Assembly: GCA_005880615.1 (NCBI GenBank)
Contig: VBID01000122.1
Coordinates: 1-56,612, forward strand
DNA length: 56,612 nucleotides
Direction: 5' to 3'
DNA from: Chloroflexota bacterium
GTDB lineage: Bacteria; Chloroflexota; Dormibacteria; CF-121
Under the pieces are notes generated by a model. The model was not told the DNA's origin. It searched no databases and saw nothing but the letters and a program-made list of their open reading frames with translations. Made by a program: the position numbers and the translations under genes. Of this stretch, positions 28,169 to 29,447 are shown piece after piece (the stretch's first letter is position 1; the number at the start of each line of letters is the position of its first letter).

Positions 28169-28900
28169 CTAAGAGGTTCGGCGGAGTGCCGTGATCACCA
28201 GGCCGTCCGTGATCTCGAGGCGGGAGGCTGGCGAGCTAGAGCGCCAGAGGGTGCGCAGCCGTGGCCAGCTCCCCGCAGATAGCCGGGGGCGGGGAGTTCC
28301 CAGCAGATCGATGTACTCGGGAAGATCCCCGGGGCCTCTCAAGCGGATGTGATACCGATGCCGGCGCCTCCCCTCCAGGGTGAAGGACCCGTCTCTGACC
28401 ACCCGATCGAGCGCGGCCTCGGCCGCCAGCAAGTAGCGGTCAAACGATGGGTTCACAAGCTTGCCGGCCGGCAACCGACGCGAGCCACTGACCACGGCAA
28501 GCCGGGCGTCGAAGCGCTCGGGTGTGATACTGACGGCAGCGCCTTTTGCCCGCAGGACTCCCCGGACCGCGTGAAGGGCATGGACCATGCCCCGCAACGC
28601 GGTTCATCACAGCGACCAGCTGAAGACGGCGACATCGAACGGGGCGCCCACCCGGCGGAGGGTCTCCCCGGCGCCGTAGACGAACTGCACGTTCCTGATG
28701 CCCTGCTGCCTGGCAGCTGCTTGAGCCTCGCAGAGCGCCTCGCGATCGGGATCGACGGCGACCACCGACGCGGCCAGGCGCGCCAGTTGCATCGTCAGCC
28801 GGCCATCGCCGCAGCCGATCTCGAGGACGCGACGGCGCCCCAAGGCGACAAAGCGTTGGATCAGCCGCACTTCGATGCCTGCGGCCGGGTACGGGTTCAT
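28169..28900 (-). CDS. class I methyltransferase, candidate selenoprotein with two in-frame TGA codons
   Basis: From ATG 28900 the frame reads MNPYPAAGIEVRLIQRFVAL, then RRRVLEIGCGDGRLTMQLA (motif I), ASVVAVDPDREAL (motif II) and FDVAVFSWSL. Codons 98-99 are then TGA TGA (28609-28604). The same frame goes on TALRGMVHALHAVRGVLRAK and GAAVSITPE, just where motif III (VRRVLRPGG...VSI) is expected, and stays open to a stop at 28169, 243 codons in all. Nothing else is broken. A strong stem-loop with a GGUC apical loop follows the TGAs directly. I infer tandem selenocysteines; the alternative is a pseudogene with nonsense changes in neighbouring codons. TGA is a normal stop in this genome (for example leuC). 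It lies 19 nt after a DUF5946 gene, probably in the same operon. Substrate unknown. Confidence 0.7.
28566..28603 (-). promoter_or_regulatory. candidate bacterial SECIS stem-loop
   Basis: Right after TGA-TGA the mRNA can fold: outer stem ACCGCG / CGCGGU, inner stem GGGCAU / AUGCCC, apical loop GGUCC. The GGUC begins 17 nt after the second TGA. In the E. coli fdhF SECIS a GGUC apical loop begins 18 nt after UGA on a short upper stem. The stem is inside coding sequence, as bacterial SECIS elements are. Confidence 0.65.
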
Positions 28901-28919: not shown

Positions 28920-29447
28920 CTATCGCATGAGTCCGGCATCGCCCAGGAGGCGCCCGGCCAGGGCCCCGGCGGCGCGATGCTGCGCGGACCAGGCCTGCCA
29001 GACGGATCGCGCCCACCGTCCCACGGCATCGGCGTGGCCGACCACCGAGCCAGCTCGAACGCCGGCCTCGGCCACATCGAGCACGGTGACGGTACCAACG
29101 TCCCGGGGACGGTCAAACGATGGCCAGGAGGGGTCCGGTTTGCCCATCCGCTGGTGCGCGCGTCGAACCTCGAGTCCATCCCGGCCTCGCTCCAGGGTGA
29201 GAAACAGGCCGACCAATGAATAGGTGACGCGAATGCTGCGGGCGTCATTTCCGGCGTGCTGCGCGCCGTAGGTGTCCACCATCAGCTGGTGATACTTGCC
29301 CAGCGGGACGAGGTGACCCAGCTCGAAGCCGAGCACTTCACCGTAGACCGCCCAGCATTCGGGTGACGCGTTCTGGCGCCGGTCGGGCGGCTGACCGCTG
29401 GCCGGCAGCTGGAGCGCGCATCCAGGGCATACGGACCAGGCGGGCAT
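28920..29447 (-). CDS. DUF5946 family protein
   Basis: A 175-aa protein starting WSVCPGCALQLPAS with a CPGC pair, then ASPECWAVYGEVLGFELGHL, the DUF5946 pattern (CxxC ... SpaCW..y.evl..e), and LMVDTYGAQHAG, typical for the family's central part. The later segment RSIRVTYSLVGLFLTLERG and the C-terminal helix (VGRWARSVWQAWSAQHRAAG) are also family-like. Function is not known; the Cys/His residues suggest metal binding. It is directly upstream of the candidate selenoprotein methyltransferase. Confidence 0.75.
   Translation of the reverse strand: MPAWSVCPGCALQLPASGQPPDRRQNASPECWAVYGEVLGFELGHLVPLGKYHQLMVDTYGAQHAGNDARSIRVTYSLVGLFLTLERGRDGLEVRRAHQRMGKPDPSWPSFDRPRDVGTVTVLDVAEAGVRAGSVVGHADAVGRWARSVWQAWSAQHRAAGALAGRLLGDAGLMR

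Follow-up and report, generated by a model that had tools for sequence, protein, structure and literature searches.

A candidate bacterial selenoprotein family of methyltransferases with two adjacent in-frame UGA codons

The minus strand of a 56,612-nucleotide stretch of DNA (hereafter, the window) from a soil-dwelling member of the Chloroflexota (genome of 3.59 Mb, 90.5% complete) carries a methyltransferase reading frame that contains two neighboring TGA codons and then stays open. We asked whether this pair ends the gene or encodes selenocysteine (Sec) and, if the latter, at one codon or at both. The findings discussed below favor, with a probability of roughly 0.86, an undescribed-looking bacterial selenoprotein family of class I SAM methyltransferases, in which both adjacent UGAs would be read as Sec and the resulting Sec98-Sec99 pair would occupy the position of an active-site His-His in relatives.

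The methyltransferase frame and the selenocysteine machinery of its host

Translation bore out the frame proposed in a first-pass annotation of the window: an ATG at 28900-28898 opens 97 codons on the minus strand, codons 98 and 99 are TGA TGA (28609-28604, minus strand), and a further 144 codons lead to a TAG at 28171-28169. With both TGAs read as Sec, the gene (28169-28900, minus strand) encodes a predicted class I SAM-dependent methyltransferase of 243 residues, an assignment based on the translation, Pfam PF13649, 11 full-length relatives and an AlphaFold2 model. The predicted protein scored 59.3 bits against PF13649 (cut-off 27). Its model, built from an alignment of 20 sequences, reached a pLDDT of 92.8 and a pTM of 0.88, and Foldseek matched it to 1xxl (E = 9.4e-13), indicative of a class I SAM methyltransferase fold; searches of the PDB by sequence and by fold returned generic methyltransferases only. 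A DUF5946 gene (108.8 bits; 28920-29447, minus strand) has the same orientation and ends 19 nt 5' of the methyltransferase ATG; the two may share a common transcript.

All four genes of the Sec pathway that the first-pass annotation had proposed to look for (selA, selB, selC and selD) were found in this genome. The tRNA-Sec scored 57.8 bits, with ARAGORN in agreement, and selA (554 bits) adjoins selB (351 bits). The selD gene is fragmented on two contigs, and its N-terminal fragment itself bears a Sec residue in the motif SHGAGUACK. TGA is the normal terminator of selA in the same genome and, in three relatives (L010, L016 and L018), the Sec methyltransferase itself stops at a TGA that follows the conserved C-terminus. 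Because TGA still acts as an ordinary stop, there is no need to invoke an altered genetic code or readthrough in general.

Sec use appears to be very widespread among Chloroflexota, with selA matched in 322 of 400 sampled genomes. Within this sample, selA was present in 45 of the 47 genomes that carry the Sec methyltransferase gene and in 277 of the 353 that do not (Fisher p = 0.003). The two remaining carriers, G029 and G351, gave no selA match, perhaps due to incomplete bins.

Distribution of the family and residues at the codon pair

A set of 100 related genomes contained 11 full-length relatives with 45-53% identity and TGA-TGA at the identical place, together with a second group, in the same class, of partial-length matches bearing one or two TGAs. 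A contig scan using the single window protein as query yielded no match, while the scan succeeded with an alignment query bearing X at the TGA columns. When 400 Chloroflexota genomes were searched with a profile, 47 proved to contain the family. All matches at E<=1e-20 carried one or two TGAs, except for the N-terminal piece of a split gene in G019. Since the profile has C at the pair columns, Cys-Cys proteins would have scored well; nevertheless, neither this search nor a pattern-free check revealed a Cys-Cys form. Named records containing the family derive from Chloroflexota, Actinomycetota, Acidobacteriota and Armatimonadota.

We compared the pair in 73 distinct sequences, picked by a pattern that demands a Sec-Sec (UU), Sec-Cys (UC) or Cys-Sec (CU) type pair. 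UU was found in 58, UC in 12 and CU in 3. Thus the first TGA (codon 98; 28607-28609, minus strand) is still TGA in UU and UC relatives, while the second (codon 99; 28604-28606, minus strand) is TGC or TGT in the latter. In the pattern-free check, the sole other state inside the Sec clade was Arg-Gln, found in an Anaerolineales member (L094), possibly reflecting Sec loss or a changed function; the outgroup, composed of the nearest Sec-free relatives from Desulfobacterota and others, has His-His. The first-pass annotation had looked to homologs with Cys-Cys or Sec at codons 98-99 for support, and its expectation held for Sec/Cys exchange but not for Cys-Cys. Two copies of the gene are broken. 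In G013 (L029, G013:C235), approximately residues 94-134, including the Sec pair and the hairpin described below, are unmatched and the frame shifts; in G019 (L021/L135, G019:C26), the gene is split shortly before the Sec pair.

A tree obtained by a quick search without bootstrap grouped the Sec rows together, set apart from all others by a branch with an SH-aLRT of 100. On the same tree, UC corresponded to 8 changes, at least 6 of which were forced by well-supported branches, and CU to one change. UC accordingly arose repeatedly, while CU forms a single clade. Among close relatives, dN/dS was about 0.15-0.25 on the 3' side of the TGAs and similar on their 5' side, indicating purifying selection both before and after the pair.

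A conserved hairpin and the decoding of the two UGAs

The putative SECIS core (28576-28592, minus strand) consists of the stem GGGCAU/AUGCCC and an apical loop, GGUCC. Scored in ungapped register 3' of the TGAs, this six-pair stem (positions 12-17 with 23-28 after the TGAs) was paired in 438 of 438 cells, and hence in 73/73 sequences from four named phyla. Variation within it included G-C to A-U changes, and 21 cells showed two-sided compensatory change. Stems slid to other positions as controls had only 24-60% of cells paired, and 0 of 1000 shuffles reached the observed values. The loop follows the consensus NGUNN, with G in 73/73 and U in 71/73 sequences. In one relative (L148:1474-2220), the stem is almost wholly rewritten (GAGUGU/ACACUC) at the same place, and the loop reads CGGCG, its U having changed to G. 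Third codon positions are near-frozen within the stem and free to either side.

The first-pass annotation had described a long stem-loop resembling the SECIS of E. coli fdhF. Both helices are indeed present in the window, where the outer one (ACCGCG/CGCGGU) extends the hairpin to 28566-28603 (minus strand; MFE -25.3 kcal/mol, z -2.06). In contrast to the inner stem, the outer helix occurs in the window only and is not conserved across relatives; the pair 4-35, for example, forms in 8/73 sequences. An Rfam search with the window hairpin gave chance miRNA matches only. With respect to fdhF, whose apical loop bears GGUC, the likeness extends to the GGUC 17 nt after the second TGA in the window and to the loop G-U, which is common to the family. 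The E. coli element also has a bulged U in its upper stem. No such bulge is found in the family, whose conserved stem runs through six pairs without interruption.

UC genes recode a single UGA, the first, which precedes the loop by 20 nt; in CU genes it is the second alone, at 17 nt. Because the hairpin lies in the same place in both kinds of gene, it must be capable of acting on a UGA at either distance. One SECIS therefore appears to serve both UGAs in UU genes. A single hairpin, with its loop 20 nt and 17 nt downstream of the respective codons, would recruit SelB and Sec-tRNA for each of them.

Taken together, these results demonstrate that the two UGAs are conserved as part of the coding sequence and are accompanied by an RNA stem of their own, in organisms that possess Sec machinery. 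The full sel set, the covarying stem, the exchange between UU and UC along with the CU clade, and purifying selection flanking the pair strongly support Sec at both UGAs, the fuller form of the earlier proposal, as does the lack of Cys-Cys forms in the genomes searched. We weighed this interpretation against two others. Were TGA-TGA a true stop, or the mark of a gene broken by mutation, assembly error or leaky readthrough, the downstream frame would be a remnant. TGA does ordinarily terminate in the window genome, as at selA, and broken copies of the family occur in G013 and G019. However, the same TGA pair recurs in independent assemblies from at least 4 phyla, and the region 3' of it is under purifying selection and contains the covarying stem; comparison of the relatives thus refutes this explanation, which we consider scarcely credible. 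Alternatively, only one UGA in UU genes might be decoded as Sec, the other being read poorly or by a near-cognate tRNA, such that the product would effectively be Sec-X and much of it would end at the pair. UC and CU genes indicate that a single Sec suffices in some species, and two successive UGAs might be expected to decode inefficiently. Nevertheless, UU predominates by a wide margin and persists over deep branches, Cys is the only alternative at each position in the clade apart from the one Arg-Gln protein, and a near-cognate residue would need no kept second TGA. We therefore view single decoding as improbable, and favor Sec at both codons.

Possible role of the Sec pair and comparison with known families

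In the AlphaFold2 model, the Sec pair follows the beta strand formed by residues 88-94; in sequence alignment it corresponds to the His-His of RebM and AtmM. In WbdD, the His-His residues cluster around the SAM methyl group (PMC3482155). Since the aligned His-His of relatives is located at the SAM methyl group, a direct part for the Sec pair in catalysis or binding is suggested, and the site is likely catalytic or substrate-binding. The lack of any Cys-Cys counterpart in our searches suggests a chemistry for which one selenol or more beside the SAM methyl is essential. In these multi-phylum methyltransferases, the vicinal Sec-Sec is probably an active-site ligand or nucleophile by the SAM methyl group, with both UGAs decoded via one SECIS hairpin. 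More tentatively, the selenols of Sec98 and Sec99 might hold a soft substrate (a thiophilic metal(loid), a thiol or a selenol) beside the SAM methyl for transfer, an idea that we rate at somewhat less than even odds.

A different role, entailing the same decoding, is that of a redox switch, in which a diselenide or selenenyl sulphide would control the methyltransferase rather than bind its substrate. The exchange among UU, UC and CU never removes both Sec residues, in keeping with a reversible dichalcogenide bond, and many selenoproteins are redox proteins (PMC13188914). The location of the pair, where the His-His of relatives sits at the SAM methyl group, suggests instead a direct part in catalysis or binding, and we regard the switch as rather unlikely. 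The gene neighborhood provided no family-wide partner and no conserved neighbor hinting at a substrate; lineage-specific neighbors were a zinc alcohol dehydrogenase, XdhC/YqeB, secreted SH3/fn3 and Bmp proteins. In a Thermoflexales/Anaerolineae subgroup (L076, L079, L063 and L066), the Sec methyltransferase adjoins or lies near yqeB (TIGR03309, 315 bits), and in L076 and L079 it is also beside an XdhC-type gene. As yqeB belongs to selenium-dependent molybdenum cofactor biosynthesis, this arrangement offers a lead, and only a lead, toward selenium-dependent molybdenum enzymes.

A table of 119 families and subfamilies in a 2026 review of prokaryotic selenoproteins contains no UU motif (PMC13188914), and the open-access literature yielded no description of bacterial tandem Sec or of Sec methyltransferases in Chloroflexota. 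Since methyltransferase selenoproteins are already represented in NCBIfam (MduS, ArsM/AhpD, ArsM/DUF2284 and MTase/UXPK), the earlier statement that no tandem-Sec methyltransferase had been described is too strong in general form: none is catalogued with the motif UU, but methyltransferases with 2-3 Sec residues are (MduS and the ArsM fusions). Judged against NCBIfam and the open-access literature, the family is apparently undescribed. It would add an apparently unnamed selenoprotein family spanning at least 4 phyla, whose genes are likely annotated as truncated methyltransferases and which, unlike many selenoprotein families, is without a Cys-Cys counterpart in our searches. TGA-TGA, TGA-TGY and TGY-TGA before the same hairpin constitute a natural allelic series with which to test how one SECIS and SelB recode two successive stops. 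If our interpretation is correct, the hairpin's ability to serve a UGA at two spacings is evident from the naturally occurring UU, UC and CU genes.

That the gene instead belongs to a catalogued family of selenoprotein methyltransferases (MduS, Sec-ArsM or MTase/UXPK) is very unlikely. The window protein does match such profiles weakly, via the common methyltransferase domain, but its scores of 30.3 bits against MduS (NF045649, cut-off 380) and 22.7 bits against the ArsM/AhpD selenoprotein (NF041537, cut-off 510) fall far short. The MTase/UXPK-star double selenoprotein (NF047649, cut-off 460 bits) was absent from the matches listed for the window; its best E-value was 2.3e-17 among 31 family members. 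The 400 Chloroflexota genomes contained neither an MduS nor an MTase/UXPK protein above cut-off. MduS, named as a methyltransferase domain-containing double selenoprotein, likewise combines a class I methyltransferase domain with two Sec residues, but has the motif CxxU and a profile of 338 positions. Sec-ArsM and its fusions (NF008823, NF041536 and NF041537) are also SAM methyltransferases with Sec, placed, however, in a C-terminal UxxG motif (UIGG in L159, UIAG in the window genome) rather than after beta strand 4. The window genome itself encodes a Sec-containing ArsM (WTGUIAGALP; L167, G000:C151:5581-6225), and Sec-ArsM-like matches with a single TGA are common in the phylum sample.

RebM, AtmM, WbdD and the Desulfobacterota relatives share the fold and the alignment position but are Sec-free, with His-His where the present family has Sec-Sec, Sec-Cys or Cys-Sec. 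Adjacent chalcogen residues also occur in the bacterial selenoproteins HgcA, SaoL, SaoC and MbdU, several of which have been suggested to handle metals; their pair motif is CU, and they are otherwise named families. Consecutive Sec-Sec is known from the algal PDI_e selenoprotein, in the motif GUGUU (PMC7539508), and is therefore not unprecedented in all life, although PDI_e is a eukaryotic protein disulphide isomerase that relies on the eukaryotic decoding machinery.
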